A stretch of 50,198 nt of DNA from Herpetosiphonaceae bacterium (GTDB lineage: Bacteria; Chloroflexota; Chloroflexia; Chloroflexales; Herpetosiphonaceae). Location: the NCBI GenBank assembly GCA_013538855.1, contig JABXJS010000080.1, positions 1 through 50,198 on the forward strand, given 5' to 3'. Position numbers and translations under genes: made by a program. Shown here piece after piece: positions 161 through 19,934 of the stretch (within the stretch, counting starts at the first letter, position 1; each line of letters starts with the position of its first letter). The notes under the pieces are model-generated. The model was given only the letters and a program-made list of their open reading frames with translations. It did no database searches and was not told the DNA's origin.

Positions 161-187
161 TGTATGCAGCTTTAGGAGATGAAGCTA

Positions 188-859: not shown

Positions 860-891
860 CTGTAAGCTCGTTGCAAGCAAAGGGCGCTGCC

Positions 892-1476: not shown

Positions 1477-1495
1477 CGAGGGTGCTTGACACAGC

Positions 1496-1540
1496 ACAAC
1501 GAGCTTGCCGTGCATCAGGCAAGCTCGTTGTTTGATTAAG
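1496..1540. terminator. Bidirectional hairpin terminator
   Basis: A perfect 14-bp inverted repeat (1496-1509 with 1518-1531, 8-nt loop) lies between the convergent genes ending at 1476 and 1555. A short T-rich stretch (TTTGATT) follows on the + strand. It can serve both genes. Confidence 0.8.
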
Positions 1541-1554
1541 CCCCGTGTATGCTG

Positions 1555-2070: not shown

Positions 2071-2134
2071 CAAAAAACTCCTTCAACAAGGTTCTCACGT
2101 GCTGGCTGTTCTATCACAATGTGGGCCAGCGCCA

Positions 2135-4075
2135 CTACTCATCGTCTTTGGTGCCCTCGACCAGAATCTCGTAGTGGTCGATCAGGCTCGACTTAGCGCC
2201 GAGGATCGACGTTTCAAAGCGCGTCGTCTGGCCTGGCTGTAGCTCGGTCGATTTTGGAATAGCGGTCTCGAGATCGATCACTTGGTTTTCGGCATTGAAG
2301 AAGGTGATCTTTGCTTGGACAAGCTTGACCGGGTGCTCCTCGTTGTTGGTGATCTGGCCCTCGATGCTTGGAAAGATGCTGTCGCCCTCTGGGATGAGGG
2401 TAACCTCGCTCACCGTGAAGTTGCGCTTGTAGAAGTCATCGGTGAGAAACCCGCTGCTCTGACCATCAACTTGTATGGTGTAGCTGGTGTACTCCGGCAG
2501 CGCCTCCGAGAAGAGCGCCTGCCATCCGGCGCTTTGGCCCGGCGCAAGGTAGCCCGCCTGTGTGTAGCCATCTTGCTTGGCAACCACTTTGCCGGTGCTG
2601 TCCTTAAGCACAACCGTGATTTTGACCGAGTTGTAGTCGCGCTCGGTTTGGTTTGTCACCAGGCCATAAAACCAGGTGCTCTCGTTGACATCCGTTGGCA
2701 GACGGCGATACAGCCCGCTGATCGCGAACTCGCCCTCGCTGCTGTCATCCTCGGTGGCTGGGATTAGCTCTAGCTCGGGAATGGTGTTTTTGATCGGCTG
2801 CGGCGTGCGTGCTGGTGCAGTTGGCGGTGCCTTGGGCTGGGTGGGGCGCGCCGTTGGCCGCGGCCGGTCATCCGGCTGCGCGACGATTGTTGGCAGGCGC
2901 AGGTTCGGGTCGCCGAGCGGGATCTGCAGCGGCCCTTTGTCGTTGTTGGGCGGCGGCACCTGCACTACGGTGGGCTTGCGCTGATTGAGCAGCAGGAATG
3001 TGCCGCCGATGATCACCAAGATCAGCAGCGTGACGCTGCCGATCACGCCCCAGAGCAGCCGATTGTTGTTGGGCTGACCAACGGCCATCGTCGGTGCCAG
3101 CGGCTGCGACGGTGGCCCAAAGCCGCCGACTGTCGGCCCGGTGTAGGGCGGCTGAAACGGCTGGCTTGGCGTTGCGCTTGGCACGTGGCCGAGCGCCGGG
3201 GCCAGCGGCTGCTGCACTGTCGCGCCAACATAGGCGGGATAGGCTGGCGGAACTGTGGCGTTGGCCTGCACCGCGCGCAGCACGCGCGCGATCTCGCCGG
3301 CTGTCTGCGGGCGGTCGTTGGGGTTTTTGGCTAGCATCACGTTGATCAGGTTGTCCAGCGCTGGTGGCAGCAGTGCGCCGGTCGAGCTAGGCAGTGGCGC
3401 GGGCACATACACATGGCTGTACATCATCTGCGCGGTGTCGCCAGGGAAGGGATGCCGACCGGTGACCATCTGAAACAGGATCACGCCAAAGGCATAGATA
3501 TCGGTGCGGTGATCAAGCTTCGACGCCTGAAGCTGCTCGGGGGCCATATAGCCGATGGTGCCGATGATCATGCCGCTCTGGGTGATCTGATCGCTGTCGC
3601 CCATGGCCATGCGCGCTAGCCCAAAGTCCACCAGCACAAGCTGGCCATTCGGCCGCAGCAGCACGTTGGCAGGCTTAAGGTCGCGGTGCAGCATGCCCGC
3701 ATTGTGCGCATAGTCCAGCGCCTCGGCCAGCTGGATGCTGATCTCCAGCACGCGCTCCAGTGGAATGCGGCCTTGCTGGAGCACCTCGACCAAGCTTGGC
3801 CCTTCGATCAGCTCCATCACAATGTATGGATTGCCCTCATGCTCATCGACATCGAAGACGCGCACAATGTTGGGATGCGACAGTTTGGCCGCCATCTGCG
3901 CCTCGCGCAAAAAGCGCTGGCGCGCCTCGTCGGTGACGCTGCCCTGGATGATCTTGATCGCCACGGGAATGTTCAGCTGTGGGTGCTGTGACCGATAGAC
4001 CGCGCCCATTCCGCCTGCGCCCAAGCGTGACTGAAGCCGATACTTGCCAAGCTGGGTGTTACTCAGATCGCTCAT
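2135..4075 (-). CDS. Transmembrane Ser/Thr protein kinase (PknB type)
   Basis: A 646-residue receptor-like Hanks-type kinase. The N-terminal kinase domain (about 12-268) has the Gly loop GAGGMG (19-24), ATP-anchoring Lys41, the catalytic HRDLKPAN (130-137), DFG (150-152) and APE (178-180), so it should be active. A Pro/Gln-rich linker (about 275-338) leads to one transmembrane helix (about 340-364). The extracytoplasmic part is a Pro/Thr-rich spacer plus two beta-rich domains resembling FxLYD repeats, the first starting near SGLYRRLP and the second near the C-terminus. These are not PASTA repeats, so the ligand is unknown. The gene has its own promoter between the nuo terminator and the start, so its position beside complex I need not mean a functional link. 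Confidence 0.92.
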   Translation of the reverse strand: MSDLSNTQLGKYRLQSRLGAGGMGAVYRSQHPQLNIPVAIKIIQGSVTDEARQRFLREAQMAAKLSHPNIVRVFDVDEHEGNPYIVMELIEGPSLVEVLQQGRIPLERVLEISIQLAEALDYAHNAGMLHRDLKPANVLLRPNGQLVLVDFGLARMAMGDSDQITQSGMIIGTIGYMAPEQLQASKLDHRTDIYAFGVILFQMVTGRHPFPGDTAQMMYSHVYVPAPLPSSTGALLPPALDNLINVMLAKNPNDRPQTAGEIARVLRAVQANATVPPAYPAYVGATVQQPLAPALGHVPSATPSQPFQPPYTGPTVGGFGPPSQPLAPTMAVGQPNNNRLLWGVIGSVTLLILVIIGGTFLLLNQRKPTVVQVPPPNNDKGPLQIPLGDPNLRLPTIVAQPDDRPRPTARPTQPKAPPTAPARTPQPIKNTIPELELIPATEDDSSEGEFAISGLYRRLPTDVNESTWFYGLVTNQTERDYNSVKITVVLKDSTGKVVAKQDGYTQAGYLAPGQSAGWQALFSEALPEYTSYTIQVDGQSSGFLTDDFYKRNFTVSEVTLIPEGDSIFPSIEGQITNNEEHPVKLVQAKITFFNAENQVIDLETAIPKSTELQPGQTTRFETSILGAKSSLIDHYEILVEGTKDDE

Positions 4076-4108
4076 CGCCTATTCCTATGCTTTAGAAGAT
4101 TTGCTGGC

Positions 4109-4137
4109 ATTATACAAAACGCCTTGCTTGTATGGAA
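4109..4137 (-). promoter_or_regulatory. Sigma70-type promoter of the kinase gene
   Basis: On the minus strand a perfect TATAAT (4109-4114) lies 17 bp downstream of TTCCAT (4132-4137). It is 34 bp upstream of the kinase ATG and just past the nuo terminator, so it is well placed for the kinase and lipoprotein genes. Confidence 0.6.
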
Positions 4138-4157
4138 TGTTCCGCTACTATACAACA

Positions 4158-4194
4158 AAGAGCCGACGACCTTGTACAAAGATCGTCGGCTCTT
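4158..4194 (-). terminator. Terminator of the nuo operon
   Basis: A 12-bp perfect stem (4158-4169 with 4183-4194) and 13-nt loop start 17 nt after the nuoN stop. On the minus strand they are followed by TTTGTTGT, a standard intrinsic terminator arrangement. Confidence 0.8.
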
Positions 4195-4211
4195 GCGTCT
4201 ATTGCTCGCGC

Positions 4212-5855
4212 TTAGCGCGCCGCCAGCATTACCGCCGCCTGCTCCAGCGTGCCATAGAGCAGTGACGGCAGCACGCCCAAGAAGAGCACCGCCAGCACGG
4301 TCAGCGTCATCACGAAGCGCGGGCCAAACGGGGCCTTGACGACCTCGCTGTTGGTCGGCTCCTCGATGTAGATCGCCTTGAGGATGCGCAGATAGTAGAA
4401 CAGGCTGATGATGGTGTTGAACACCGCAAAGATCACCAGCCACTTCGCGCCCTCTTGCCATGCCGCAATAAAGACGTAGAACTTGGCAAAGAAGCCCGAC
4501 AGCGGCGGAATACCCGCCAGCGACAGCACAAAAACCGTCAGCATCAGCGCTAGTCCTGGCGCGCGTCGGCCAACGCCGTTGAGGTCGCTCAGATCGGTGC
4601 CGCCGACCTTCTCTTCGATCAGCGCCAGCACGCCAAATGCGCCCAGGTTGGTTACGGTGTAGACCACGAGGTAGTAGATCAGCGCTGTGCCACTGTCGCG
4701 GCTGATGCCAACCAGTCCCAGCAGCAGGAAGCCCGCGTGGGCGATCGACGAGTAGGCCAGCATGCGCTTGGTGTTGGTCTGCGGCAGTGCCGCCAAGTTG
4801 CCCACCAGCATGGTCAGTGCGGCGATCACCGCCAGCACGCTGGTCCAGCCGCCAAAGCTCACCGCCGTGCCGCCTGCCGCCACCAGCGCCGCCGTGCCCG
4901 TGGTTGTCGGGTCGGCAAAGGCCGTGAGCAGCACTCGGTATAGCAGGAAGAAGCCGGCTGTTTTTGAGGCCGTCGAGATGAAGGCGGTGATCGTCGTCGG
5001 CGCGCCCTGGTAGACATCAGGCGACCAGGAGTGGAACGGCACCACCGAGACTTTGTAGGCCATGCCGGCGATCATCATCAGCAGGCCCAGGAAGAGCACC
5101 GCCTGGCCAGGGTTGCCCGCCTCGCTGAACGTCATCTGCACCGACGCGGCGATCTGCTGCAGCGTCGAGGGCACCACCGCCTCCGATGAGGCCATCGGCG
5201 CGGTCTGCATCGCCATGCCCAGCACAAGGCTCATCCCAAACAGCAGGATGGCCGACGAGAGCGCCCCGAACACGTAGTACTTCATCCCGGCCTCGGTGCT
5301 GGTCGCGCTACGGCGATAGTACCCGGCCAGAATGTACAGCGGAATACTGGTCAGCTCGATGCCCAGGTAGATCATGATCAGCTCGCCAGCGGCGGTCATC
5401 AGGATCATGCCCAGCGTCGAGAACAGTATCAGCGCATAGAACTCGCCAGGGCTGTTGTTGGGCTGTGTCGCCGTAGACAGCGCCACCGTAACAAAGGCCG
5501 CGCTAATAAACAGCAGCCGCCCGATATGCGTCAGCGGGTCGATCACGATCGCGCCGCCGAGAATCTGGTTGGTCTGGCCGCCTGTGCGCAGATTGCTAAT
5601 AAACGACCAGCTGGTAATGTCGATCTTGAAATTGAGCAGAAATGCCTGCAGCAGGCCGCTCTGGATGAGCGTCACGATAAATGCGAAGGCTAGACCGACC
5701 ATGGTCATGGTCGATGCTTCGCTGGTGCGCTCCTTGAAGCCCGCCGCACCAGTGCGCCAACGCCCGAACAGATCGCTGATGACCACCATAAAGGCGACGA
5801 GCACCAGCAGCAGCTCGGGGATGAGTCTGGATATATCACTTGTTTGAAAGCTCAC
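4212..5855 (-). CDS. nuoN: NADH-quinone oxidoreductase subunit N
   Basis: A 547-residue polytopic membrane protein of the complex I antiporter-like family and the last gene of the operon. Family features include the ELTSIPLYIL stretch with the conserved TM5 Glu, the following AGYYRRS and AGMKYYVFGAL segments, and the VVPFHSWSPDVYQGAP stretch typical of NuoN. NuoN forms one of the proton-pumping modules in the membrane arm. The start is a GTG at 5855 preceded by GGAGG at 7-nt spacing. The length is somewhat above the E. coli protein (485 aa), largely because of an extended loop between about residues 85 and 110. It is separated by 66 nt from the second nuoM copy and followed by the operon terminator. 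Confidence 0.95.
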   Translation of the reverse strand: MSFQTSDISRLIPELLLVLVAFMVVISDLFGRWRTGAAGFKERTSEASTMTMVGLAFAFIVTLIQSGLLQAFLLNFKIDITSWSFISNLRTGGQTNQILGGAIVIDPLTHIGRLLFISAAFVTVALSTATQPNNSPGEFYALILFSTLGMILMTAAGELIMIYLGIELTSIPLYILAGYYRRSATSTEAGMKYYVFGALSSAILLFGMSLVLGMAMQTAPMASSEAVVPSTLQQIAASVQMTFSEAGNPGQAVLFLGLLMMIAGMAYKVSVVPFHSWSPDVYQGAPTTITAFISTASKTAGFFLLYRVLLTAFADPTTTGTAALVAAGGTAVSFGGWTSVLAVIAALTMLVGNLAALPQTNTKRMLAYSSIAHAGFLLLGLVGISRDSGTALIYYLVVYTVTNLGAFGVLALIEEKVGGTDLSDLNGVGRRAPGLALMLTVFVLSLAGIPPLSGFFAKFYVFIAAWQEGAKWLVIFAVFNTIISLFYYLRILKAIYIEEPTNSEVVKAPFGPRFVMTLTVLAVLFLGVLPSLLYGTLEQAAVMLAAR

Positions 5856-5921
5856 GCTTGTTCCTCCGCAGCAGGGGTAGTGCTAGCGCGATGCAGGGTC
5901 GCTGCACCGCGCTCCGTCTTC

Positions 5922-7445
5922 TTACCGGCCCGCCAGCATTTGCCCAACATCTGCGATGCGCTGGGCGATTGGTTCTACACCAGTGCCGATCAGGTTCATA
6001 ATGATCGATGGGAAGAGGCCAACGCCGATGACCACGCAGGCCAGCACGGTGCCAGCAAACTTCTCCTGCCACGTCAGCGGCGGCAGCTCGTAGTAGTGCG
6101 GGTCTTTGACGTCGCCCATAAAGGCCATGTAGCCAACCCGCAGCACATATGCGGCGGTGATCGGGATCGACAGCGCGGCGATGGTGCCGATGACCGGGTT
6201 GAAGTTCATCACGCCAGTGAAGATCGTGAACTCGGCCATAAAGCCCGCCGTGCCCGGCATACCCATCGATGAAAGGCTCGCGATGATAAAGACCACAAAC
6301 GCAAACGGCATGATCTTCATCAGGCCGCCTAGCTCTGGCAGCTGGCGCGTATGCGTGCGCTCGTAGACCATGCGGCCGACCACGGCAAAGAAGAGCGCGG
6401 TCATCACGCCGTGGGCGAACATCTGCATCACTGCGCCGTTGAGCGCCGTGGTGTTCATCGCCGAGATGCCCAGCATCACCAGGCCCATGTGGCTCACCGA
6501 GGAGTAGCCGATCACGTACTTGAAGTCTTTTTGCACCATCGCGATGGTTGCGCCATAGACGACGTTCAGCAGCGTGATGCCGGCAATTGTCGGCAGCCAG
6601 TAGTGCGCGCCGTTGGGCATCAGCCACAGCGCCGCACGCAGCGCACCATAGGCACCCAGCTTCATCAGCACGCCTGCGTGCAGCATCGACACTGCGGTTG
6701 GCGCAGCCACGTGGCCGGTCGGCGACCACGTGTGGAACGGGAACATGCCCGCCAGCACTGCGAAGCCGACGAAGATCGGCAGGAAGAACACGATTTGGAA
6801 GGTGCGGCTGAACACGGTGTTCGAGAGCGCCACCATATCAAAGGTGCCGCCAACCACGTACACCGCGACCATGCCGACAATCACCATCGCCGAGCCAACC
6901 ATCAGGTACAGCGTCAGCTTCATCGCGCCGTACTCTTTGCGCGTCGAACCCCAGATGCCGATCAGCAGGTACATCGGCAGCACGGCCAGCTCGTAGAACA
7001 CAAAGAACAGGAACAGATCCAGCGAGATAAACACGCCATACACACCAACGACCAGCAGCAGCAGCAGCACAAAGTACTCTTTGGTGCGGTCCTCGATGTT
7101 CCACGAGATAAATGATCCGGTGAAGATCACAATCGCGTTGAGCACGATCAGCGGCAGGCTGATGCCATCTGCGCCGACAAAGTAGCTCATGCCCAACTGT
7201 GGCACCCAGTTGATCTTTTCGACAAACTGGAGCTTGGTTCCTAGGTAGCCAGGCGCGTTCGGATCGTAGGCGAAGAAGATCATCACCGCCAGCACCAGCG
7301 AGAACGCCGAGGTGCCGACTGCGATCCAGCGCATCGCGTTTTTATACTCGCGCGGCAGGAACATAATCAGCAGCATTCCCACCAGCGGTGAGAGCCAGAT
7401 CAGGCTCAGATAGGGAATGTTCGTTGGTAAATCCCACAAATGCAT
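5922..7445 (-). CDS. nuoM: NADH-quinone oxidoreductase subunit M, copy 2 (NuoN-proximal)
   Basis: A 507-residue antiporter-like subunit. It carries the TM5 glutamate (E152 in YELAVLPMY), followed by GIWGSTRKEYGAMK, and the HTWSPTGHVAAPTAVS and LMKLGAYG segments with the pumping Lys. Length and motifs fit NuoM rather than NuoL or NuoN. A second full-length NuoM-type gene lies just upstream (7476-9158), and the two differ enough (for example HTWSPTGH against HTWLPDAY) not to be a recent duplication. The ATG at 7445 has GGAG 8 nt upstream; a TTG at 7469 is in frame but less likely. Transcribed within the nuo operon. Both copies appear intact. Confidence 0.95.
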   Translation of the reverse strand: MHLWDLPTNIPYLSLIWLSPLVGMLLIMFLPREYKNAMRWIAVGTSAFSLVLAVMIFFAYDPNAPGYLGTKLQFVEKINWVPQLGMSYFVGADGISLPLIVLNAIVIFTGSFISWNIEDRTKEYFVLLLLLVVGVYGVFISLDLFLFFVFYELAVLPMYLLIGIWGSTRKEYGAMKLTLYLMVGSAMVIVGMVAVYVVGGTFDMVALSNTVFSRTFQIVFFLPIFVGFAVLAGMFPFHTWSPTGHVAAPTAVSMLHAGVLMKLGAYGALRAALWLMPNGAHYWLPTIAGITLLNVVYGATIAMVQKDFKYVIGYSSVSHMGLVMLGISAMNTTALNGAVMQMFAHGVMTALFFAVVGRMVYERTHTRQLPELGGLMKIMPFAFVVFIIASLSSMGMPGTAGFMAEFTIFTGVMNFNPVIGTIAALSIPITAAYVLRVGYMAFMGDVKDPHYYELPPLTWQEKFAGTVLACVVIGVGLFPSIIMNLIGTGVEPIAQRIADVGQMLAGR

Positions 7446-7475
7446 AGTTTCAACTCCACGGTCGCTCAAGAGCGA

Positions 7476-9158
7476 CTACTGAAAGACCTGCGCCAGCACT
7501 GTTGAGGCGGTGTTCGCTAGGTCCATCAGCGGTTTTGGATAGACCCCGAACACGAGCAGCAGCACCAGCAGCGGTACAGTGACGTTGAACTCCCAGCTGC
7601 CAACGCGCATGTCCGGTAGGTTGCTCCAGCGGGCGGTCGTCGGCCCGTAGAAGATCTTTTGGTACATGCGGATAAGCACCAGCGCGGTCACGATTAGGCC
7701 AAGCACGGCGATCGCCGTGATCAGTGGCTGCGTGCCCCAAGCGCCGCGGAAGATGAAAAACTCGCCGACGAAGCCCGCCAGGCCCGGCAGGCCAAGGTTG
7801 GCGAACATAGCCATACCCATCACGCCAGCAAACACCGGCATGACCTTGCGCAGCCCGCCAAACTGGTCAAGCTGGTAGGTGCCGGTGCGCTCAAAGAGCA
7901 TGCCGCCCAGGAAGAACAGGGCCGCTGTGCTGAAGCCGTGGGCGATCAGCTGCACTTGCACGCCGTTGATCGCCGAGGCGCGCACATCCACGCCGTTGCT
8001 CAGCGTGCCCACCGAGGCGGCGGCGGCGATGCCGAGCATCACATAGCCCATGTGGTTGATCGAGGCGTAGCCGATCAGCCGCTTGAGATGCGTCTGCGCT
8101 AGGCCTGCGTAGGCCCCAAACAGGATGCTGGCCAGCGCCAGCACCGCCAGCACTGCGGCGAAGTGCTGCATTTGCTGCGGGAACAGTGGCAGCAGCAGCC
8201 GCAGCATACCGTAGGCCCCCATCTTGGACATCACGCCCGACACAATCATCGAGCCAGAGGTCGGGGCCTGCGAGTAGGCGTCTGGCAGCCACGTGTGCAG
8301 CGGCCACACGGCCAGCTTCACCGCAAAGGCCACGAAGATACACCAGAAGATGATCGCCGCATAGGTGCCCGAACTGCCGCCAAGCAGGCTGGTCAGTCCG
8401 GTCCCTTGCACTGCGCCGTATACCAGCTCCTGCAGGTTCATGCCTGGCTGATACACCAGCGAGCCAAGCTTCGGCGCAACGAGGCTCGGGTCAACCGGCA
8501 GGCCCTGGCCGAGCCGCGCTAGTACCGCGAGGTCGAAGGTGCCTGTTGCCAGGTACAGGAACTCGAAGATCAGCAGCATGCCCACCGAGCCGGCCATCGT
8601 ATACACAAAGAACTTGAAGGCCGCATAGCGCCGGTCCTCGCCGCCCCAGTTGTTGATAATAAAGAACATCGGCACCAGGCTGAACTCCCAGAACAGGAAG
8701 AACAGCAGGAAGTTGAGCGATACGAAGTAGCCCAACATCGCCGACTCGAGCAGCAGCAGCAGGGCCATGTAGACCCGCGCGCGCTCTTCAACCCGAAACG
8801 CCGCCAGAATCGTCACCGGCGTCAGAATCACCGTCAGCAGCACCAGCGGGAAGTTGATCCCGTCCAGGCCAACGAAGTACTGCGCGTTCAGGAACTCGAT
8901 CCAGTTCAGTCGATCAACGTGCTGGATCAGCATCTGCGTGCCGTCGGTGGAGCGCGCCGCGTAGTCGAAGCCGCCGCTGAACCACAGGTACAGCGTCAGG
9001 CCCAGCGGCACCAAGCTCCAGGCGAACACACCCCACTTGACGGTGCGGTCATCTTTCGACGGCCAGATCAGCGCCAGCACCATGCCGATCAGCGGGCTGA
9101 GCGCGATGAGCGAGGTGATGCTCCAGTCGCTCGCGCTGAGAAAATCAGTTAACTGCAT
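7476..9158 (-). CDS. nuoM: NADH-quinone oxidoreductase subunit M, copy 1 (NuoL-proximal)
   Basis: A 560-residue NuoM-type antiporter-like subunit. The TM5 Glu is E158 in FWEFSLVPMFF, followed by INNWGGEDRRYAAFKF, and the TM7-8 region reads HTWLPDAYSQAPTSGS and MSKMGAYG. The motifs are those of a functional proton-channel module. It lies between nuoL (12-nt gap) and another nuoM. A fourth pumping subunit of this kind defines the so-called 2M complex I. The ATG at 9158 is 9 nt from AGGAG; a GTG at 9164 is only 3 nt from it and less plausible. No frameshift or lost key residue was seen. Confidence 0.94.
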   Translation of the reverse strand: MQLTDFLSASDWSITSLIALSPLIGMVLALIWPSKDDRTVKWGVFAWSLVPLGLTLYLWFSGGFDYAARSTDGTQMLIQHVDRLNWIEFLNAQYFVGLDGINFPLVLLTVILTPVTILAAFRVEERARVYMALLLLLESAMLGYFVSLNFLLFFLFWEFSLVPMFFIINNWGGEDRRYAAFKFFVYTMAGSVGMLLIFEFLYLATGTFDLAVLARLGQGLPVDPSLVAPKLGSLVYQPGMNLQELVYGAVQGTGLTSLLGGSSGTYAAIIFWCIFVAFAVKLAVWPLHTWLPDAYSQAPTSGSMIVSGVMSKMGAYGMLRLLLPLFPQQMQHFAAVLAVLALASILFGAYAGLAQTHLKRLIGYASINHMGYVMLGIAAAASVGTLSNGVDVRASAINGVQVQLIAHGFSTAALFFLGGMLFERTGTYQLDQFGGLRKVMPVFAGVMGMAMFANLGLPGLAGFVGEFFIFRGAWGTQPLITAIAVLGLIVTALVLIRMYQKIFYGPTTARWSNLPDMRVGSWEFNVTVPLLVLLLVFGVYPKPLMDLANTASTVLAQVFQ

Positions 9159-9170
9159 GCTCACTCGCTC

Positions 9171-11438
9171 CTAGAATGCATACAGGTACAGCAGGGCCAG
9201 CACGACCACACCTGCGAAGATGTAGAGGCCGTAGTCCTGAATCTTACCTGTCGCGGACTGCCGGACACCATCGCCGACCACCACTGTGCTCTCGCCCAGC
9301 GAGTCGGTGCCGGTGTTCAGGAAGAAGTCATCCAGAATGAAGTTCATCCGGCCGATGAACAGGGTCGCCTTGCCCACCAGATTGACTACGAAGTCAACCA
9401 GCGAGCGGTCGATCCAGTTCAGCAGCGCGCCTGCGCCATACGTTAGCGCGATAACGGTGCGCTGATATAGCTCGTCGATATAAAATTTGTTTTCCAGCAA
9501 AGTCCAGATCGGCCCCAGTGGCCCGGCCAGCGGGTCGCGGTCCATCGAGGTTTTGAAGGCGTTGCGGTAGACCGCATAGCCTAGCCCGATACCCGCAAGC
9601 GCAATCACTGTGGCGATGGCCGGAGCTGCAATATCAAATTCTGGCGCAGCCTGGAAGAGGAAGTGCGAGAGCCAGTGGATGCCGAACATGCCGGCATTGG
9701 CGAAGCCTGCCAGCAGCGCAAACAGCGCCAGCACCAGCAGCGGGCCGGTCATCGAGCGCGGCGACTCGTGTGGATCGTGCGCCTCGTGCGCGTGATGGTG
9801 GTCGTCGTGATGCTCGTCGTGGTGCGCGTGCGCATCGGTCGCCGGATCAGTCACGGCTACCGGCTCGCTGTGCTGGACATCGACCCGCCGCGGGTCGTAG
9901 CCGCGGAACTTGCCGAAGAACACCACCATAATCTGGCGCGTCATATAGAAGGCCGTCAGGAAGGCCGCGATGGTCAGCACAACGTACACCACCACGTGGC
10001 CCTCTTTGAGCGCGTCGGCCACAATTTCATCCTTCGACCAGAAGCCCGCGAAGGGAAAGATACCCGCTAGCGCCAGGTAGCCTGCCATGTAGGCGATGAA
10101 CGTGGTCGGCATAAACTTGCGGATCGCGCCCATGTTGCGGATGTCCTGCGCCTTGTCTGGGTCGTGCCCAACCGTGGCCTCCATGCCGTGGATGACCGAG
10201 CCGGAGCCAAGGAACAGCAGCGCTTTGAAGAAGGCGTGGGTCAGCAGGTGGAACAGCGCCGCCACCCACGCGCCGATGCCCAGCGAGGCCACCATAAAGC
10301 CCAGCTGCGACAGCGTGGAGAAGGCCAGGATGCGCTTGATGTCGTACTGCGCCACAGCGATCAGCGCCGCGAACAGCGCCGTGAAGGAGCCGATAAAGGC
10401 CACCACCGGCAAGATTTCGCTCACCTGGAAGATCGGGAACGTGCGCACCACTAGGAACACACCGGCCGCGACCATCGTCGCCGCGTGGATCAGCGCCGAC
10501 ACAGGCGTCGGGCCTTCCATGGCGTCCGGCAGCCAGACGTGCAGCGGGAACTGCGCCGACTTGCCCACGGTGCCCATGAACACCAGGATCGCAATCGCCG
10601 AGGCGATCGTCATCCCTGGAATAATGCTGTTGGTGGTCTTGATCGTCTCAAGAAAGGTGGCGTTGAAGATCTGCCCTGGCTCAGTCCCGAAGGTCAGCGA
10701 GCCAGATGCATTGTAGAGGTAGACCATCCCCAGCAGCATGCCCACGTCGCCGATGCGCGTGGTGATGAAGGCTTTCTTGGCCGCCTCGCGTGCCGAGGGC
10801 TTGAAGTACCAGAAGCCGATCAGCAAGAACGAGCACAAACCCATCAGCTCCCAGCAAATAAAGAAGAGGAGCAGATTGTCTGCGAGCGTCATGCCCAGCA
10901 TCGAGGCCGTGAACAGCGCGATGTACGAGAAGAAGCGCGACTGGCGCTGGTGGCCCGCCGGGTACTCGTCGTGGGCCATGTAGCCAACGGAGAAAATATG
11001 GATGCACAGCGCGGCCAGCGTGACCATCGCCAGCATCAGCGCCACTGGCGCGTCGAGGCGATAGCCTAGCTCAAACGTTGATGTGCCCGTTGGTGCCCAG
11101 GCCACCGCTTTGCGGTAGTAGTTACCGAAGTTCGCGATGCTTTCCTCGTGGCCACCTTCTGCTTCAGCGGCCAGCAGCGGCGCGTCGGAGCTGCCTGTCT
11201 GTGCCGAGGCCACCATGCTATGGGCGGCGCTCGCCTCAGTCGCTGGCGCGGTGGGGAAGCCCTCGGTGGCCGCCTGCGCCAGCACGCCCCACGCCAGCAC
11301 CGTGGCAACTGCCAGCATGGCGATGGCAGTTGTATAGGATGCCTGTCGTGAGCGCCCGATCGCTGGAACCAGCGTGATCAACGCAAAAGCTGCCAGCGGC
11401 AGCAGCGGGATCAGCCAGGCAAGATCAAAAAACGGCAT
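9171..11438 (-). CDS. nuoL: NADH-quinone oxidoreductase subunit L, enlarged
   Basis: A 755-residue antiporter-like subunit at the distal end of the membrane arm, far longer than E. coli NuoL (613). The core has LLFFICWELMGLCSF, the FPLHVWLPDAMEGPTPVS stretch and the following SALIHAATMVAAG. Extra length comes from three places: an Ala/Thr/Ser-rich insert after TM2 (about residues 57-105), a His/Asp-rich linker (about 534-560; 9763-9837) before the C-terminal helices, and about 25 extra residues (about 697-731) in the lateral amphipathic helix region before the last TM. The last fits an enzyme with an additional NuoM. The ATG at 11438 has a GGGGG about 9 nt upstream. Confidence 0.95.
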   Translation of the reverse strand: MPFFDLAWLIPLLPLAAFALITLVPAIGRSRQASYTTAIAMLAVATVLAWGVLAQAATEGFPTAPATEASAAHSMVASAQTGSSDAPLLAAEAEGGHEESIANFGNYYRKAVAWAPTGTSTFELGYRLDAPVALMLAMVTLAALCIHIFSVGYMAHDEYPAGHQRQSRFFSYIALFTASMLGMTLADNLLLFFICWELMGLCSFLLIGFWYFKPSAREAAKKAFITTRIGDVGMLLGMVYLYNASGSLTFGTEPGQIFNATFLETIKTTNSIIPGMTIASAIAILVFMGTVGKSAQFPLHVWLPDAMEGPTPVSALIHAATMVAAGVFLVVRTFPIFQVSEILPVVAFIGSFTALFAALIAVAQYDIKRILAFSTLSQLGFMVASLGIGAWVAALFHLLTHAFFKALLFLGSGSVIHGMEATVGHDPDKAQDIRNMGAIRKFMPTTFIAYMAGYLALAGIFPFAGFWSKDEIVADALKEGHVVVYVVLTIAAFLTAFYMTRQIMVVFFGKFRGYDPRRVDVQHSEPVAVTDPATDAHAHHDEHHDDHHHAHEAHDPHESPRSMTGPLLVLALFALLAGFANAGMFGIHWLSHFLFQAAPEFDIAAPAIATVIALAGIGLGYAVYRNAFKTSMDRDPLAGPLGPIWTLLENKFYIDELYQRTVIALTYGAGALLNWIDRSLVDFVVNLVGKATLFIGRMNFILDDFFLNTGTDSLGESTVVVGDGVRQSATGKIQDYGLYIFAGVVVLALLYLYAF

Positions 11439-11459
11439 GGAAGTTAACCCCCATAAAAA

Positions 11460-11537
11460 GTGTGAAGCGCCAGCAGGTTGGTCTATGCGTGGCGCGTGCG
11501 CCGTGCATACCGGTGAGAACCTGCATAAACTTCACAC
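11460..11537 (-). other. Multi-stem intergenic RNA structure between nuoK and nuoL
   Basis: The 107-bp gap between nuoK and nuoL holds four nested perfect stems on one axis: 11460-11467 with 11530-11537 (8 bp), 11473-11479 with 11518-11524 (7 bp), 11484-11488 with 11505-11509 (5 bp) and 11491-11495 with 11498-11502 (5 bp). There is no U-tract after it, so it is not a plain terminator. It may be a processing or stability element, or a small REP-like repeat. It ends 22 nt before the nuoL start codon. Confidence 0.6.
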
Positions 11538-11545
11538 CTTATATC

Positions 11546-11863
11546 TCATCCTTTGAGTGTGTCAGCTTCGTCTGCATTGATGGTCTGGCGGGCGCGATAG
11601 ATCGCGATAACCATGGCCAGACCGACCGCCACCTCAGCGGCGGCAACTGCAATCGTAAAGACGGTGAACGTCAAGCCTGCGGTGCCCATCGGCCGTAGAT
11701 AGCGCCAAAAGGCCACCAAATTGATATTGACAGAGTTGAGCATCAGCTCGATCCCCATCAGAATGCCCACCGTGTTGCGCCGTGATAGTGCCCCAAACAG
11801 GCCGATACAAAACAGCCCTGCGGCTAGCGTCAACACCCAGGCAATTGGGATTGTTCCAACCAT
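11546..11863 (-). CDS. nuoK: NADH-quinone oxidoreductase subunit K
   Basis: A 105-residue three-helix membrane subunit of complex I, at the normal family length. The two glutamates expected in TM2 and TM3 are visible in [18 protein letters not shown] and [10 protein letters not shown]. NuoK (Nqo11) contributes to the proton channel near NuoJ and NuoN. The reading frame extends upstream to 11941, but the ATG at 11863 is right: it begins MVGTIPIAW and has AGGAGG 6 nt upstream, overlapping the nuoJ stop. The gene is followed by a structured spacer before nuoL. Confidence 0.96.
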
Positions 11864-11873
11864 GACATTCCTC

Positions 11874-12557
11874 CTACACGGCCTGTTCCGCATCGACGGG
11901 AACAACCGCGCCTTCTTCGTCGTGCGGCTCGACAATCCCACGTTTGCGCAAGGCCAGCTCCTCCGCCAGTGTCAGCACTCGGCGGCGGCGCGTGCGTTCT
12001 TCAAAGGCGATCAAGATCGCGCCGATCAGCGCGGCGGTCAGCAGCAGCGAAACAACCTCGAACGGCAGCAGGTACTCGCCCATCAGCGCGGCTCCAAGCT
12101 CTTCGGTGCCCGCGACCGGGATGATTTCCGGCCGTGTGCCGCCGTTGGCCTCGGTCGCCTGCTGCACGAGGATGGCCTGCGCGTCGCTGGCCGTTTTATC
12201 CCAGCTGGAGCCTTGTTGCCAAACTGTCGGCACGATAACGCCGCCGAACAGCGCGGCGGCGGTAAGCATCGCTACCCACCAGCGGCTGTGCAGCTGGCGC
12301 GTGCCGGTGCCTGTGATCTGGCGCGTCAGCATGATCGCGAACAGCACCAAAATCGAAACCGCGCCTGCATAGACGAGCACCTGCACAATCGCCAGGAACT
12401 CGGCCTCCATGAGCATATACAGCGCGGCCACACCCACAAATGTCGAGATCAGCCAAAGTGCTGCGTGAATAATATTCTTGACGGTGACGACCATTATACC
12501 TGACCCCAGCGTGAGCGCTGACAGTAGGAAGAAGATCGTCAGAACTACATAATTCAT
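11874..12557 (-). CDS. nuoJ: NADH-quinone oxidoreductase subunit J
   Basis: A 227-residue membrane subunit (Nqo10/ND6 type). The N-terminal helices include the [12 protein letters not shown] and [11 protein letters not shown] segments and the [16 protein letters not shown] stretch, which contains the conserved TM3 glycine/alanine pi-bulge region. After the fourth helix there is a hydrophilic loop rich in Gln/Asp/Thr, then a final helix and a charged Arg-rich cytoplasmic tail (FEERTRRRR). The tail makes it longer than the E. coli protein (184 aa). The ATG at 12557 follows a GGAAGGAACC stretch. nuoK starts 10 nt after the stop. A hairpin (12588-12607) separates it from nuoH. Confidence 0.94.
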
Positions 12558-12587
12558 CCTTGGTTCCTTCCGAGCGTTTCAAGCGTA

Positions 12588-12607
12588 TGGGGCGGTTGGC
12601 CGCCCCA
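12588..12607. other. Hairpin between nuoH and nuoJ
   Basis: A perfect 8-bp GC-only-rich stem with a TTGG loop (12588-12595 with 12600-12607) begins right after the nuoH stop. No T-run follows on either strand, so it may set mRNA stability within the operon rather than end transcription. Confidence 0.5.
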
Positions 12608-12613
12608 CAACGA

Positions 12614-13837
12614 TTAGCCTGCTAGGCCCAGAGCGATTTCTTCTTCGGTCAGGTCGGACGGCTGTCGTCGATTGATGCGCATCACTGCGTAGACGGCCAG
12701 CAAGTTGATGATCAGCGTTACAACAATCGCCACGCCGTAGCGCAGATAGTTGTCGCTGGCTGGCTCACCAAACCAGTCGGTAAAGATTTGTGCCTGCGGC
12801 CCCCAGCGCGTGATCGCCACCCAGATCGCGGTGCTGAATACGTTGACCAGCACGATCGGCAGCAAAAACTTCCAGGCAAAGCCCATCAGCTGGTCCACAC
12901 GCAAACGTGGCACCGTGCCGCGGATAAGCACCATCAGGAAGAATAGCGCCAGCGCCTTGATGAAGAAGTACACCAGCGAGAGCAGCCCGCCAAGCACCGT
13001 GCCTAGCGCTGTGACGCCCGGCCCGTTGCCACCGCCCAAGAACAGCGACGCCATAATGAAGCACAGCGCTAAGTTGGTCATGTAGTTCGACAGGTAGAAC
13101 ACCGCGAACTTCATGCCGCCGTACTCCGTTAGGTAGCCGGCCACGATCTCTGAGTCTGCTTCGGGAATATCGAAGGGCGTGCGCTCACCCTCCGCCAGCG
13201 CGGCGATGAAGAAGGTGATAAACGCCGTTAAGCCAACGGGGCTGAAAACATACCAGCCAAAGCCGTACCAGTCACCTTGGCGCGTCACGATGTCCGTCAG
13301 CGAGAGCGAGCCGGAGAGCAGGATGATCGGCAGCAGCGCCATTAGCAGCGGGATTTCGTAGCTCACCATCTGGGCTACGCCACGCATACCGCCGAGCAGC
13401 GCAAACTTGTTGTTCGATCCCCAGCCGGCCATCAGCATGCCCACGGTGTGTAGGCCGGTTACGGCGAAGATAAACAGCACGCCCACGCGTAGCGACGATG
13501 GGAACAGATTGCCCCACGGGATCACAGCGAAGGCCAGCACGGTTGCGCCAAGCATCACCACCGGCGCGAGGAAGTGCACCACGCGATCAGCATCAAGCGG
13601 CGTGATGTCCTCCTTCGTCATGGTCTTGATCGCCTCCGAAACCGGCTGCAATAGGCCCTGGGGGCCGACGCGGTTAGGGCCGCGGCGGTCTTGCATGTAG
13701 GCGATTGCGCGGCGCTCGTACCAGGTGAGGAACATCATGCCCAGCGAGCCACCGACCAGAATCAGTGTGACTTTGATGATGCTGACAAGAACTAGACCTA
13801 TCCATGCGTCTACTGCGATAACAGGCCAATACGTCAT
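12614..13837 (-). CDS. nuoH: NADH-quinone oxidoreductase subunit H
   Basis: A 407-residue membrane subunit (Nqo8/ND1) that forms the quinone-entry chamber and connects the peripheral and membrane arms. Signature stretches: TWYERRAIAYMQDRRGPNRVG near the N-terminus; the acidic quinone-channel loop with EGERTPFDIPEADSE and GYLTEYGGMKF; and the VLIRGTVPRLRVDQLMGFAWK segment near the C-terminus. All are conserved, so the protein should be functional. The ATG at 13837 lies 3 nt after the nuoI stop. Gene order I then H is inverted relative to the common H-I order. Confidence 0.96.
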   Translation of the reverse strand: MTYWPVIAVDAWIGLVLVSIIKVTLILVGGSLGMMFLTWYERRAIAYMQDRRGPNRVGPQGLLQPVSEAIKTMTKEDITPLDADRVVHFLAPVVMLGATVLAFAVIPWGNLFPSSLRVGVLFIFAVTGLHTVGMLMAGWGSNNKFALLGGMRGVAQMVSYEIPLLMALLPIILLSGSLSLTDIVTRQGDWYGFGWYVFSPVGLTAFITFFIAALAEGERTPFDIPEADSEIVAGYLTEYGGMKFAVFYLSNYMTNLALCFIMASLFLGGGNGPGVTALGTVLGGLLSLVYFFIKALALFFLMVLIRGTVPRLRVDQLMGFAWKFLLPIVLVNVFSTAIWVAITRWGPQAQIFTDWFGEPASDNYLRYGVAIVVTLIINLLAVYAVMRINRRQPSDLTEEEIALGLAG

Positions 13838-13840
13838 TGC

Positions 13841-14860
13841 TTATTCCCCCTGCTTCGCCTTGTTGGCTTCACGAATCGCCATCAAGCGAGCCAGCTTGTC
13901 TTCGGACATATTTTTGCCTGGAGCGGCCACAGGGCCAGTCGCCTTGCTGGCGGCTGAGCCGGAGGTCGCCTGATCGCTCGGGGCCACCTGACCAGCGGCG
14001 TTGGTCGCCACATCGGCCTCGATGGCATGCGCGCCGCTCTCTGGTGGGCCGCCGCGCTTGCCTGTGTTGGCCTCGCGAATCGCCATCAGCCGCGCCAGCT
14101 TGTCCTCGGACATACTGGTGCCAACTTTGGCGATGGGGCCGGTGTACTGCTTGCGGCCTGCGGCTCCAGCTGCTGGTGTAGCTGCCTTTGGCGCAGCGGC
14201 GCTAGACTTGCCGGCGATCTTCTGGCCATGATCGACGCCAATGTTGCCAGGACGGCGCTTGATGTTATTTTGCAGCTTCTTCAGCGCTGCGTCGCGCACC
14301 TCGGCCCACATCGTTGGCGCGATCGCCTCATAGTAGGAGACTGGGCGCAGCAGGTGGGTGTAGTGCACATCGAGCGCTGGATGATCAGCCGTCGATAGCT
14401 CGAAGTCGTGATCCATCTTGATCGCATCGAACGGGCAGACCTCCGCGCAGTAGCCGCACGACATGCAGGTGTCGTATTCAAGCACGAACTCGGCGGCGGC
14501 TGGAACCGGTTTGCCGGTCTCGGGATGCTTGGCCTGGGTGATGTGAATCACCTGTGGCGGACAGACGCGCTCGCACTGGAAGCACGAGGTGCACAGCTCT
14601 TGGCCGGTCGCGTCATCATAGAGCAGGATCGGCATGTTGCGGTAGGCCTCGGCGAGCACCAGGCGCTCCTCAGGGTACTGGACGTTAAATTGCCCTTCGG
14701 TGTCGTCGCGCTCGGTGTTGGCCTTGCCAAACAGCGCCTTGCGAAACTTCCGGAACACAATGTCTAGCCCTTTGAGGGTGCCCTGTCCGGCGTGAATATT
14801 GTTATCGTGGCGATTGACTTCCACGATGTTGACGGTGCCTTTGCGTGTGCTCAAGGTCAT
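13841..14860 (-). CDS. nuoI: NADH-quinone oxidoreductase subunit I with repeated C-terminal tail
   Basis: A 339-residue protein, roughly twice the usual NuoI. The ferredoxin core has two [4Fe-4S] motifs, Cys90/93/96/100 and Cys132/135/138/142, for clusters N6a and N6b that pass electrons to NuoB. The N-terminal 60 residues replace the usual amphipathic helix region. After about residue 205 comes an Ala/Pro/Lys-rich extension that contains the same 16 residues twice, [16 protein letters not shown] at 250-265 and 318-333, joined by a low-complexity linker. The tail is not part of the family and its role is unknown. The start overlaps the nuoD stop as ATGA. Confidence 0.93.
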
Positions 14861-15969
14861 CGATCCACCTCACCCATCACAATGTCGATGCTGCCGAGGA
14901 TAACCACGACATCAGCGATCTTGTACCCTTTACACATATCTGCCAGCGCACTCAGATTAATAAACGAGGGCGCGCGCACTTTGTAGCGATAGGCCGAGCC
15001 GGAGCCGTCGCTGACCAGGTAGAAGCCTAGCTCACCCTTCGGTGACTCGACGCGGGCGTAGGACTCGCCGACCGGCGGCTTCAGGCTCTGCTGCTTGACC
15101 TTCGGGTTGATATGGCCGCCCTCGGCCTCGGGCATCTGCTGTAGCGCCTGCTCCAGAATGCGGTAGGACTGGCGCATCTCTTCAACGCGCACCAGAAAGC
15201 GGTCGTACACATCGCCGACGGTGCCGACAGGAATGTCGAAGTCGAAGCGATCATACACCGCGTATGGCTCGGCTTTGCGCACATCATAGGGCACGCCCGA
15301 GCCACGCAGCAGTGGGCCGGTGACGCTGTAGCTCAGCGCAAGCTCTTTGGGCAGCACGCCCACGCCCTTGGCGCGCACTAGCAGGATTTCATTCTCGACC
15401 AGCAGGCGCTCAAACTCGTCGAAGTAGCGCGGCAGGCCCTGCATCAGCTTTTTAACTTCGCTGATGAAGTAGTCGTCGATATCGCGAGCCACGCCGCCGA
15501 AGCGGCTATAGTTGCACATCATGCGCGCGCCTGAGACATACTCAAACAGGTCGAGGATTTTCTCGCGCTCACGCAGACCCCACAGCAGCGATGTTTGCCA
15601 TGCGCCCATGTCGCCAAGCAAGAAGCCCAGCGCTGACGCATGATTAAGGATGCGCGATAGCTCATCCATAATGACGCGAATATACTGGGCGCGCTCAGGG
15701 ACCTCGATGCCCGCCAGTTGCTCGACTGCGCGGGCATAGGCGTGATTGTTGACCATCGAGTTGAAGTAGTCGAGCCGATCAGTGAACGGCATATTTTGTA
15801 GATAGGAGTTGACCTCACCGAGCTGCTCGTGATTGCGATGCAGATAGCCAAAAACTGGCTTGAGATCAACCAGCGTCTCGCCATCGACCGTCACGAGCAT
15901 GCGGAACACACCGTGCGTCGAGGGGTGTTGCGGGCCAATATTGACCTGGAGTTCTTCTGTCTTCAGCAT
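14857..15969 (-). CDS. nuoD: NADH-quinone oxidoreductase subunit D
   Basis: A 370-residue 49-kDa-type subunit that, with NuoB, forms the quinone-binding site. Family stretches: N-terminal [14 protein letters not shown], then [13 protein letters not shown], the [13 protein letters not shown] segment, the [13 protein letters not shown] stretch, and near the C-terminus [21 protein letters not shown], ending with [12 protein letters not shown]. The quinone-site His and Tyr-region residues appear intact. It is a stand-alone NuoD rather than a NuoCD fusion. Its ATG overlaps the nuoC stop by one base (TAATG), and its own stop overlaps the nuoI start by four. Confidence 0.97.
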
Positions 15970-16502
15970 TATTCTGCTCCCGTGACGTGGGTATATTTAT
16001 CGCCCGTCTTGGGGAAATCTTTGCGCAGCGGGAAGCCGGTGAATTCATCCCACATATAGACGCGCGCTAGGTTGGGATGACCAGGGAAGTCGATGCCGTA
16101 CATATCGTAGGCCTCGCGCTCTTGCAGGTTCGCACCTGGCCACGTTGGCGTCAGCGATGGGATGACACATGCTTCAGGGTTGCGGCCAACGCGCACGCGC
16201 ACGCGCACATCAGCTGGCTCATCAATATGGTAGAACTGGTACACCACCTCGATCATATCGAAATCGAGATAGTCGACGGCGGTGATATTTGACAGGTACT
16301 CGTAGCCAAACGTATCACGCAGGAAGTGGGCTACTGCAGGCAGGTGCTCAGCGTTCACAACTGCGTCGTCCTGCTGCAGGACGGGCTTGTTTTCTTCGCC
16401 GTGGCCTTCTTCCGCTGTGGCGGCGTGCTCCGCCCAGCGCTGGTCAAGTGCTGCGGGCATCTCGGTGCTCAGAATGGAGCGCAATTCACCTTTAGTGAGC
16501 AT
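15969..16502 (-). CDS. nuoC: NADH-quinone oxidoreductase subunit C
   Basis: A 177-residue 30-kDa-type subunit of the peripheral arm. Family stretches: [11 protein letters not shown]-like [58 protein letters not shown] (the ERE-x-D-x-G signature region), and the C-terminal [10 protein letters not shown]-like stretch. About 40 acidic N-terminal residues carry no known motif. The frame stays open upstream to 16757 over nuoB, but the ATG at 16502 is the start because AGGAGG lies 6 nt upstream. It overlaps the nuoB 3' end by 11 nt. Confidence 0.95.
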
Positions 16503-17235
16503 GAGCTTCCTCCTGAACGCTGTACTCGCCACTCTTGAGGACTGGCTTGGGCAGATTACCCTCCAAGACGCGCTCGTCGGCGCTGCGCTCGCCCATGCCG
16601 CCAAGGGCCGGGCTGACAAACGGGGCCATCTTCGGCAGGCCGCCAACAGGATCAGCAGTGCCGGGGAAGCCGGGCACCTCGAGGCCCTCTGCGCCAAACA
16701 CTGGCACAGGGAACTCGTTGGGGCCATGCTCGGTGCCATACCAGCGCACCTTGCCAAACGACTGGACGTCGATTTGGCTCTGCAGCGTCATCAGGGCGTG
16801 CAGCAGTGCCTCTGGCCGTGGTGGGCAGCCGGGAATGTACACATCGACTGGCACGTACAGATCGACGCCACGCACCACGTTGTAGCCATCGCGGAAGGGG
16901 CCGCCCGATGTCGCGCATGCGCCCATGGAGATGACATAGCGTGGCTCTGGCATCTGGTTGAACAGGCGCACCACCTGCGGCACCATCTTCTTGGTCACCG
17001 TGCCTGCTACAATCATGACATCAGCCTGGCGCGGCGAGGCGCGGAATAGCTCCGAGCCAAAGCGCGAGATATCATAGCGCGACGCTGCCGCCGCGATCAT
17101 CTCGATAGCGCAGCATGCCAGCCCAAATTGCATCGGCCAAACCGATGAGCGGCGACCCCAGTTGTACAGTTTGTTAAGCGTACTGAACAGAACACCTTGC
17201 TGTTCAAGATCGATTTGCGTTTGCAGATCGCTCAT
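16492..17235 (-). CDS. nuoB: NADH-quinone oxidoreductase subunit B
   Basis: A 247-residue subunit that holds the terminal [4Fe-4S] cluster N2. The four ligands are visible: the adjacent Cys41-Cys42 in GLACCAIE, Cys107 in SMGACA and Cys137 in IPGCPPRPE. The [15 protein letters not shown] segment is also typical. A C-terminal tail of about 70 residues beyond the usual end is rich in Pro/Gly/Glu and has no recognised domain. GGAGG lies 7 nt before the ATG at 17235. The presence of intact NuoB, C and D shows that the quinone-reducing core is complete. Confidence 0.97.
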
Positions 17236-17284
17236 TGTCTATCCTCCACCCAATCTGGGCTGTGCGACTAGCTGCGGAGCGAGG

Positions 17285-17641
17285 TTAGATCCACTCCAGC
17301 GCGCCTTTCTTCCATGCGTAGACTAGGCCTACGGTCAAGATCATGAGGAAGATCCCCATTTCAATCAAGGCAAAAAGACCTAGCTGCCCATACGCAACCG
17401 CCCAGGGATACAGAAATACAGTTTCAATATCGAAGATCACGAAGGCGAGGGCATATAGGTAGTACTGAACTTTAAATTGCACCCAGATTTCGCCAATTGC
17501 TTCGAGGCCACACTCATAGGTTGAAAGTTTGACTTCTGAAGGGCGGTTGGGGCGAATGATTGCCGAGATAATGAGCGGCAATAGGGGAAAGGTGATCGCT
17601 GCTACTGTGAAGATCCCAATGAATGCATAGGTTGAAAGCAT
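17285..17641 (-). CDS. nuoA: NADH-quinone oxidoreductase subunit A
   Basis: A 118-residue, three-helix membrane subunit (Nqo7/ND3) and the first gene of the operon. It has the family stretches [24 protein letters not shown] and [12 protein letters not shown]; the Cys in YECG is the conserved loop cysteine. The frame extends upstream to 17716, but the ATG at 17641, beginning MLSTYAF, has AGGAGA 7 nt before it and matches the family N-terminus. The promoter candidate at 17763-17791 gives a leader of about 110 nt. Confidence 0.96.
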
Positions 17642-17762
17642 GTGTCTTTCTCCTGCATAAACAGCGCCCTTGCTGCGCTGCATGACACACATAAACAGCG
17701 AGATGGAGTAATCCACCCTCGCTGAATTTAAATAGTGTGACTACCATGTGCGGCTTTTGAGA

Positions 17763-17791
17763 AGTATATCACAGGCGCACAGGGCTGGCAA
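17763..17791 (-). promoter_or_regulatory. Promoter of the nuo operon
   Basis: On the minus strand TTGCCA (17786-17791) and TATACT (17763-17768) are spaced by 17 bp, a good sigma70-type promoter and the best in the 265-bp gap upstream of nuoA. Transcription would start near 17756. Confidence 0.6.
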
Positions 17792-17809
17792 ATAAGCCCA
17801 AGCGTATTC

Positions 17810-17877
17810 CAGACCGCTCTCAGGGCTAGCTAGGGCGTGCTTGACAGGGGGAGGTGATGTCGGCTGAGGGCGGTCTG
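17810..17877. repeat. Imperfect inverted repeat upstream of nuo
   Basis: Arms 17810-17823 and 17864-17877 are complementary at 13 of 14 positions and enclose 40 bp. The structure lies between the FhaB-like stop (17907) and the nuo promoter. It could end transcription of the FHA genes, but it has no T-run and a long loop. Confidence 0.45.
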
Positions 17878-17906
17878 TGGTGTGGCTATGACCACCCTCA
17901 TGGGGT

Positions 17907-18377
17907 TCAGCGCGCGAGCTTAAGCTCTACCCGGCCCACGCGCACGATATCGCCGTAGGTCACTGGGGTTGCATCACGCACTTCAATGTCGTTGATAAAG
18001 GTGCCATTGGTTGAGTGCTGGTCCTCCAGCCACCAGTTATCGCCGCGCCACTCCAGCAGGGCATGCTCTGACGAGAGAAAGCTGTCGTTGAGCGCGATGT
18101 CGGTGTCTGGGCGTCGACCGATCACGTTAATGGGGCCAAGCTCGAAGGCATAGCCAGTCTCAAGGTTGGTGGCACCAGGGCTGATCACAATCAGCTTGCC
18201 ATATTGGTTCGTGCTAACACTGCGTGCACTTATGGTGTTGCTGGTTCCGGCAACCTGTAGCTCGCGGCGTAGCACGCGCACGACCTGATACAGAAAAAAG
18301 TACAAGAAGAAAACGACCCCTATTCGCAACAGGAGAATGACAAAGTCCAACGTAGCGCCAGTGACGGTATCGAACAT
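17907..18377 (-). CDS. FHA-domain membrane protein, FhaB-like
   Basis: A 156-residue protein with one N-terminal transmembrane helix (about residues 10-35, with aromatic-rich FFLYFFLYQ), a short basic linker and a C-terminal forkhead-associated domain. The FHA signature residues are present: a GRR loop, the SSEHA segment and HSTNGTFIND. FHA domains bind phosphothreonine, so this is a likely reader of the products of Hanks-type kinases such as the one at 2135-4075. The ATG at 18377 shares one base with the stop of the upstream FhaA-like gene and has GAGGAGG just upstream. A TTG at 18380 is an in-frame alternative. The pair resembles actinobacterial FhaA-FhaB, without the adjacent kinase, phosphatase or rodA/pbpA genes. 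Confidence 0.88.
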   Translation of the reverse strand: MFDTVTGATLDFVILLLRIGVVFFLYFFLYQVVRVLRRELQVAGTSNTISARSVSTNQYGKLIVISPGATNLETGYAFELGPINVIGRRPDTDIALNDSFLSSEHALLEWRGDNWWLEDQHSTNGTFINDIEVRDATPVTYGDIVRVGRVELKLAR

Positions 18378-19105: not shown

Positions 19106-19229
19106 GGTCTTTCTCCAGCAAAAAAACGCCGCTGCTACGATGGGTGTTGTTCAAGAATCGCGCCACCTCACGTTGCTGGGCATAGCGTATAGCCTGTAGT
19201 CGGCGTATCAGCTCGCCGCGCTGCTAGCA

Positions 19230-19249
19230 GCTTGCGCATAGGCGCAAGC
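19230..19249 (-). terminator. Hairpin downstream of the tsaE-tsaB genes
   Basis: A perfect 8-bp stem with a 4-nt loop (19230-19237 with 19242-19249) lies 7 nt after the tsaB stop. No T-run follows on the minus strand, so termination may be partial or factor-dependent. Confidence 0.45.
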
Positions 19250-19255
19250 ACAGCC

Positions 19256-19930: not shown

Positions 19931-19934
19931 ACGG

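Follow-up and report, generated by a model that had tools for sequence, protein, structure and literature searches.

A nuo operon with two nuoM genes in a Herpetosiphonaceae bacterium encodes a NuoL with about 25 extra lateral-helix residues and a second NuoM without the TM7 lysine

The analyzed window is a 50,198-nucleotide stretch of contig JABXJS010000080.1 (contig C7 of our set) from the 6.3-Mb genome of a Herpetosiphonaceae bacterium. A nuo operon occupies positions 4212 to 17716 of its minus strand, with genes in the order A, B, C, D, I, H, J, K, L, M, M, N (Table 1). Identities of the L, M, and N products rest on family matches and sequence comparison, and the names of genes A to K are those that we presume from sequence and gene order. 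No nuoE, nuoF, or nuoG was seen in window positions 1 to 20000; across the genome, the single NuoF to exceed the cut-off is on contig C30. Contig C20 encodes another complex I, which has one nuoM. The presence of two nuoM genes between nuoL and nuoN within one operon is the arrangement of 2M complex I, a kind of complex I that is already known and of which the window adds another example.

Table 1. Features of the nuo operon in the window
Feature	Coordinates	Strand	Remarks
nuoN	4212..5855	-	canonical charged residues kept
nuoM2 (N-proximal)	5922..7469	-	515 aa; Leu at the TM7 Lys position (residue 239; codon 6753-6755); TIGR01972 match over cut-off
nuoM1 (L-proximal)	7476..9164	-	562 aa; TM7 Lys present at residue 283 (codon 8316-8318)
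nuoL	9171..11438	-	755 aa; lengthened C-terminal lateral helix (HL); TIGR01974 match over cut-off
HL span, as measured	9252..9485	-	78 aa, from FYIDELY up to but excluding TGKIQDY (NuoL residues 652-729)
HL unit 1	9336..9413	-	NuoL residues 676-701
HL unit 2 (extra 26 residues)	9258..9335	-	NuoL residues 702-727
nuoK	11546..11941	-	name presumed from sequence and gene order
nuoJ	11874..12557	-	name presumed from sequence and gene order
nuoH	12614..13837	-	name presumed from sequence and gene order
nuoI	13841..14860	-	long C-terminal extension; name presumed from sequence and gene order
nuoD	14857..15969	-	name presumed from sequence and gene order
nuoC	15969..16757	-	name presumed; listed ORF overlaps nuoB, true start probably later
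nuoB	16492..17235	-	name presumed
nuoA	17285..17716	-	name presumed

The window NuoL keeps each of the ten charged residues that were compared with E. coli NuoL, and canonical residues are likewise kept in NuoM1 and NuoN. The NuoL fold matches NuoL/NdhF chains. Canonical NuoL proteins (E. coli, cyanobacterial NdhF) share this fold and these charged residues, but their HL span is 49 to 52 residues, one unit fewer than in the window. Elsewhere in the operon, the C-terminal extension of NuoI carries two copies of a 12-residue motif, a repeat found among the compared loci only in the window genome, and NuoM1 has an insert of ~44 residues (218 to 261) ahead of TM7 relative to E. coli NuoM.

A sequence-only reading of the window had claimed about 25 extra residues in the lateral-helix region of NuoL, at nucleotides 9246 to 9350, which are exactly residues 697 to 731. 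This excess was borne out. Measured from F652 (FYIDELY) to T730 (TGKIQDY), HL spans 78 residues, compared with 53 in the same-genome paralog on C20, an insertion of +25 as in 2M complexes, and 49 in E. coli. Alignment of NuoL C-termini from 163 loci (162 from Chloroflexota plus E. coli) gave a bimodal distribution, with spans of 49 to 54 or 77 to 83 residues. These loci comprised two from the window genome, 40 2M operons (L041 to L080) and 20 1M operons (L081 to L100) picked from the window's order, 20 loci chosen mostly by match to the long query (L101 to L120), 80 hand-picked from a phylum survey at about one per genus and type, as a subset of its rows (L122 to L201), and E. coli. The only values outside both modes were 65 (L076) and 37 (L163, in which the motif was unaligned). 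Since nothing intact lies between 54 and 77, the excess is discrete as well as close to 25. L076 (G238:C139) is an LMMN operon in which the NuoL frame breaks within the helix, a possible frameshift or assembly error.

The sequence-only reading had further argued that the longer helix supports assembly of both NuoM copies in one complex. Helix length was indeed associated with a second nuoM, but long helices also occurred in one-M operons. Among complete loci of the Chloroflexota set, those cut by contig ends being counted separately, 46 of 47 LMMN operons had spans of 77 to 82 residues, the remaining one being the broken frame noted above, whereas 84 of 98 LMN operons had spans of 49 to 54. 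The other 14 LMN operons were long (78 to 83); 11 of them came from the loci that had mostly been selected for resembling the long query, and three from the survey. The remaining 18 of the 163 loci were cut or odd. In the survey alone (80 loci), all five LMMN operons were long, and 63 LMN operons were short and three long, with nine other loci. Within the window's order, spans were 77 to 78 residues in LMMN operons and 53 to 54 in LMN operons.

A second set of 80 named loci from many phyla gave a similar picture for LMMN operons, all 27 of which were long (78 to 82 residues). These belonged to Chloroflexota, Acidobacteriota, and Verrucomicrobiota, plus one probably mislabeled MAG, and the named 2M relatives include Herpetosiphon, Thermoflexus, Leptolinea, and Acidobacteriaceae. 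The MAG in question (L249) groups by its nuo genes with Acidobacteriota/Verrucomicrobiota and is titled Klebsiella pneumoniae, probably in error. Nine of the 16 complete LMN loci in this set were long and seven short, the other 37 loci being cut, without an adjacent nuoN, or beside another operon. The refutation named in the sequence-only reading, a lack of extra length relative to NuoL of one-M operons, thus applies in part, to 14 of 98 and 9 of 16 LMN loci.

Outside Chloroflexota, one-M long operons occurred in Armatimonadota, Zixibacteria, Calditrichota, Ignavibacteriota, and Bacillota. A Caldithrix sp. and one Bacillota MAG had a single NuoM in the genome, although such MAGs may be incomplete, and each of three one-contig genomes that we read as Dehalococcoides-like (G020, G106, and G186) had one NuoM over the family cut-off. 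Operons with one nuoM and a long NuoL helix included L204, L207, L210, L219, L235, L243, L246, L276, and L279, as well as L105 to L109, L111, L112, L117, and L119. In two Actinomycetota loci (L239 and L277), M and N genes, probably of another nuo operon, lie a few kilobases upstream of a long-helix L-M-N. A strict rule equating a long helix with two NuoM was ruled out by the long one-M operons, which carry the full extra length; helix length is no proof of joint assembly of two NuoM. The step from length to joint assembly is therefore partly supported: the association favors it, but the mark is not exclusive. Insertions of 6 to 7 residues in E. coli HL between L and M are reported to cost most of the pumping (PMC3274701), and HL length is thus not free to drift. 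A test for independent pairs on the tree gave only two pairs, with the same helix length in both, and so lent no support to a causal link between the helix and the number of nuoM genes.

The extra residues had also been described as a second copy of a neighboring segment. A duplicated unit was found, but its best position is residues 702 to 727 rather than 697 to 731. A 28-column unit profile was built from 92 short-helix rows and scanned over 22 long helices and one short helix. Its consensus, FDxxVIDGxVNGVGxLVxxxGxGLRRLQ, matched the window NuoL twice, at residues 676 and 702 (26 apart), with modest individual fits (12 and 15 of 500 shuffles scored as well). Two fits 26 to 27 residues apart were also found in most of the long relatives scanned, and both beat all 500 shuffles in L041 and in the deep one-M relatives L108, L109, L111, L112, and L117. 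Self-comparison of the window helix at lag 26 was not significant, 274 of 2000 shuffles reaching its score, so that the window sequence alone would not prove a repeat and the duplication rests on the family. In five one-M relatives of the long group, the strongest self-match fell at lag 26 or 27, and between 0 and 27 of 2000 shuffles scored as high. Averaged over 48 long 2M helices, self-similarity peaked at lag 26 (-0.23, versus -0.70 to -1.29 at other lags from 18 to 35), and no such peak was present in the 92 short helices. PDB chain 6tjv_F aligned to the window NuoL in two pieces whose offsets differ by 26. We read the extra stretch as a probable in-register tandem duplication of one HL unit, giving residues 676 to 701 and 702 to 727.

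AF2 predictions were made for single subunits. For the isolated window NuoL, a helix was predicted at residues 651 to 707 and another at 712 to 729, with pLDDT below 50 over most of 707 to 734; the short-helix control L271 gave one helix (570 to 621). Five one-M second operons of family f13 genomes (L102, L103, L185, L197, and L199) had spans of 83 residues. The two that were scanned, L102 and L199, matched only one HL unit, and the extra length in f13 is thus probably a different insertion.

Trees were built from hand-chosen subsets of NuoL (121, 102, and 44 rows, with the helix removed) and NuoM (123 and 143 rows). In the NuoL trees, one-M long rows lay inside and beside the 2M rows, and an AU test rejected a single 2M clade (p 0.00047). 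The NuoM trees placed M1 of all sampled 2M operons in one group and M2 in another, far from M1, each with SH-aLRT of 99 to 100. The M1 group adjoins M of the one-M long operons. Chloroflexota, Acidobacteriota, and Verrucomicrobiota, the phyla sampled for both copies, make up the M2 group, and its sister consists of the sole NuoM proteins from four one-M operons, three of Bacillota and one of Verrucomicrobiota; Nitrospira (clade 3 in the scheme of Chadwick et al. 2018) lies outside this sample. The trees disagree on a single origin of 2M operons, for which the NuoM1 tree speaks and against which the NuoL AU test speaks, and give no firm result. A long helix in the absence of a second NuoM is compatible with both the NuoL and the NuoM trees.

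The most interesting result concerns a neighbor of NuoL, NuoM2. This protein is 33% identical to NuoM1 and, given also their separate tree groups, was ruled out as a recent tandem copy. We compared 78 M1/M2 pairs from LMM(N) operons, which include at least two duplicate contigs (L202 with L061 and L203 with L071) and exclude L073 with its broken M2 frame. NuoM1 retained the TM5 Glu (Glu144) and the TM7 Lys in 78 of 78 cases, forming the pair of a canonical pump. In NuoM2, the TM7 Lys (E. coli K234) was absent from all 78 (76 Leu, 2 Thr), leaving the TM5 Glu, present in 78 of 78, without its ion-pair partner. The other residues were kept almost throughout: K265 (TM8 Lys) in 74 of 78, H322 in 78, H348 in 77, and E407 (TM12 Glu) in 77, with one gap; the window NuoM2 has all four. 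At the TM7 position, the one-M long group (n = 30, some loci cut by a contig end) had 27 Lys and three unscored, and one-M short NuoM had Lys in 114 of 119 and Leu in five. A Lys-less sole NuoM was seen in the short-helix operons L245, L254, L265, L268, and L274 (Bacillota and one Verrucomicrobiota). All but L265, which was absent from that tree, make up the sister of M2, and loss of the TM7 Lys maps to one branch. The nearest relatives of M2 in our data come from some Clostridia-type one-M complexes, whose only NuoM likewise lacks the Lys.

These residues bear on whether the added NuoM is a canonical fourth proton pump, giving five H+ per cycle, as has been proposed for 2M complexes; PMC7419157, citing Chadwick et al. 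2018, extends the pumping mechanism to four subunits. The near-complete retention of the TM5 Glu, TM8 Lys, and TM12 Glu in M2 agrees with that proposal. However, mutation of N_K217, M_K234, or L_K229 in E. coli is reported to cause loss of function (PMC3046159), and the same account in PMC7419157 calls LysTMH7 absolutely conserved and essential. A NuoM2 lacking this residue makes the fourth-pump reading doubtful, and a relay of the lateral signal or an altered pump is somewhat more likely than a copy of a canonical pump. No mention of TM7 Lys loss in 2M NuoM2 was found in the literature searched, in which Chadwick et al. 2018 was represented by the papers citing it.

We interpret the window operon, with a probability of roughly 0.8, as a 2M complex I (nuoABCDIHJKLMMN without nuoEFG) in which HL was lengthened by one tandem 26-residue unit to pass four modules and in which M2 belongs to a distinct NuoM lineage. 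Direct results are the helix length, the gene order, the family-level repeat, and the finding that LMMN operons almost without exception carry the extension. By the proposed mechanism, one helix unit would have been tandemly duplicated in the NuoL lateral helix. The lengthened HL, anchored again by the last TM near NuoN, would then run past L, M1, M2, and N instead of three modules, and both NuoM would sit in one complex. One unit of 26 residues at 1.5 Å per residue (~39 Å) would match one module. Neither a structure nor a proton count for a 2M complex was found in the literature searched or among the PDB matches listed.

The long helix might instead be a lineage trait of one NuoL family, neutral to the number of NuoM, with the second NuoM added later or lost in places and length uninformative about assembly. 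One-M long NuoL both within and outside the long group would fit such a trait, as would the closeness of M from one-M long operons to M1 in the NuoM trees. However, a short helix was found in 0 of 46 intact-frame and 0 of 27 named LMMN operons, and the added length is close to one helix unit. We consider this reading unlikely. Still less probable is a helix-first history, in which one-nuoM long-helix complexes already hold a fourth module, for example the same NuoM twice, and 2M operons later exchanged one copy for the Lys-less NuoM. It is favored by the wide distribution of one-M long operons and by the NuoM1 tree, where they adjoin the 2M group, but the NuoL trees would also allow losses of M2. 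That the extra length is an artefact of a frameshift, wrong C-terminus, or assembly error was ruled out, since no supporting point was found, the NuoL frame is intact through the last TM, and the same 78 residues occur in eight relatives (L045, L047, L051, L054, L061, L062, L079, and L080) of the window's family, which includes Herpetosiphon.

The reading as a 2M complex agrees with what is described of such complexes elsewhere. Chadwick et al. (2018, ISME J 12:2668), as cited by later authors, report a second nuoM between nuoL and nuoN and a NuoL lateral-helix insertion of ~26 aa, with Chloroflexota among the named carriers. Those citations treat the fourth subunit as a pump, whereas the TM7 Lys is absent from every M2 examined here, and the title of that paper calls the types convergent, whereas M1 and M2 of the phyla sampled here each form one group. 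Chloroflexus aggregans likewise has a cluster of 12 nuo genes with two nuoM (Cagg_1620-1631) and encodes another complex I at a separate genomic site (PMC8004040); it belongs to a different family, and the one NuoF over cut-off of the window genome lies on a separate contig. In Ca. Manganitrophaceae (PMC9040806), HL insertions of 26 aa occur also in Complex_I_1 and Complex_I_2, and the authors suggest that these complexes can already accommodate extra subunits or are in transition. They differ from the window in belonging to Nitrospirota and in having MrpD-like distal subunits in Complex_I_3.

A bolder extension of the 2M reading, which we offer tentatively and at less than even odds, is that the added NuoM, rather than being a fourth canonical pump, is a separate lineage that lost its Lys before entering 2M operons and now works as a relay, a spacer, or a module with different gating. 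HL would then act as a modular ruler in which each module corresponds to one 26-residue unit, and a fourth module may be hidden in many one-nuoM complexes whose helix has two units.

Arguments for a higher proton stoichiometry, such as one that could drive reverse electron flow to ferredoxin, draw on 2M complexes. If NuoM2 is a relay or spacer, they would gain no full extra proton per cycle. An added subunit lacking a Lys whose mutation abolishes activity in E. coli would show, as a natural experiment, what residues an antiporter-like module needs for pumping and whether the coupling signal can be passed on without the TM7 Lys. The one-unit HL extension brings to light a set of one-nuoM complexes with a long helix, and in sequence data it offers an easy indicator of four-module complexes that falls short of proof.
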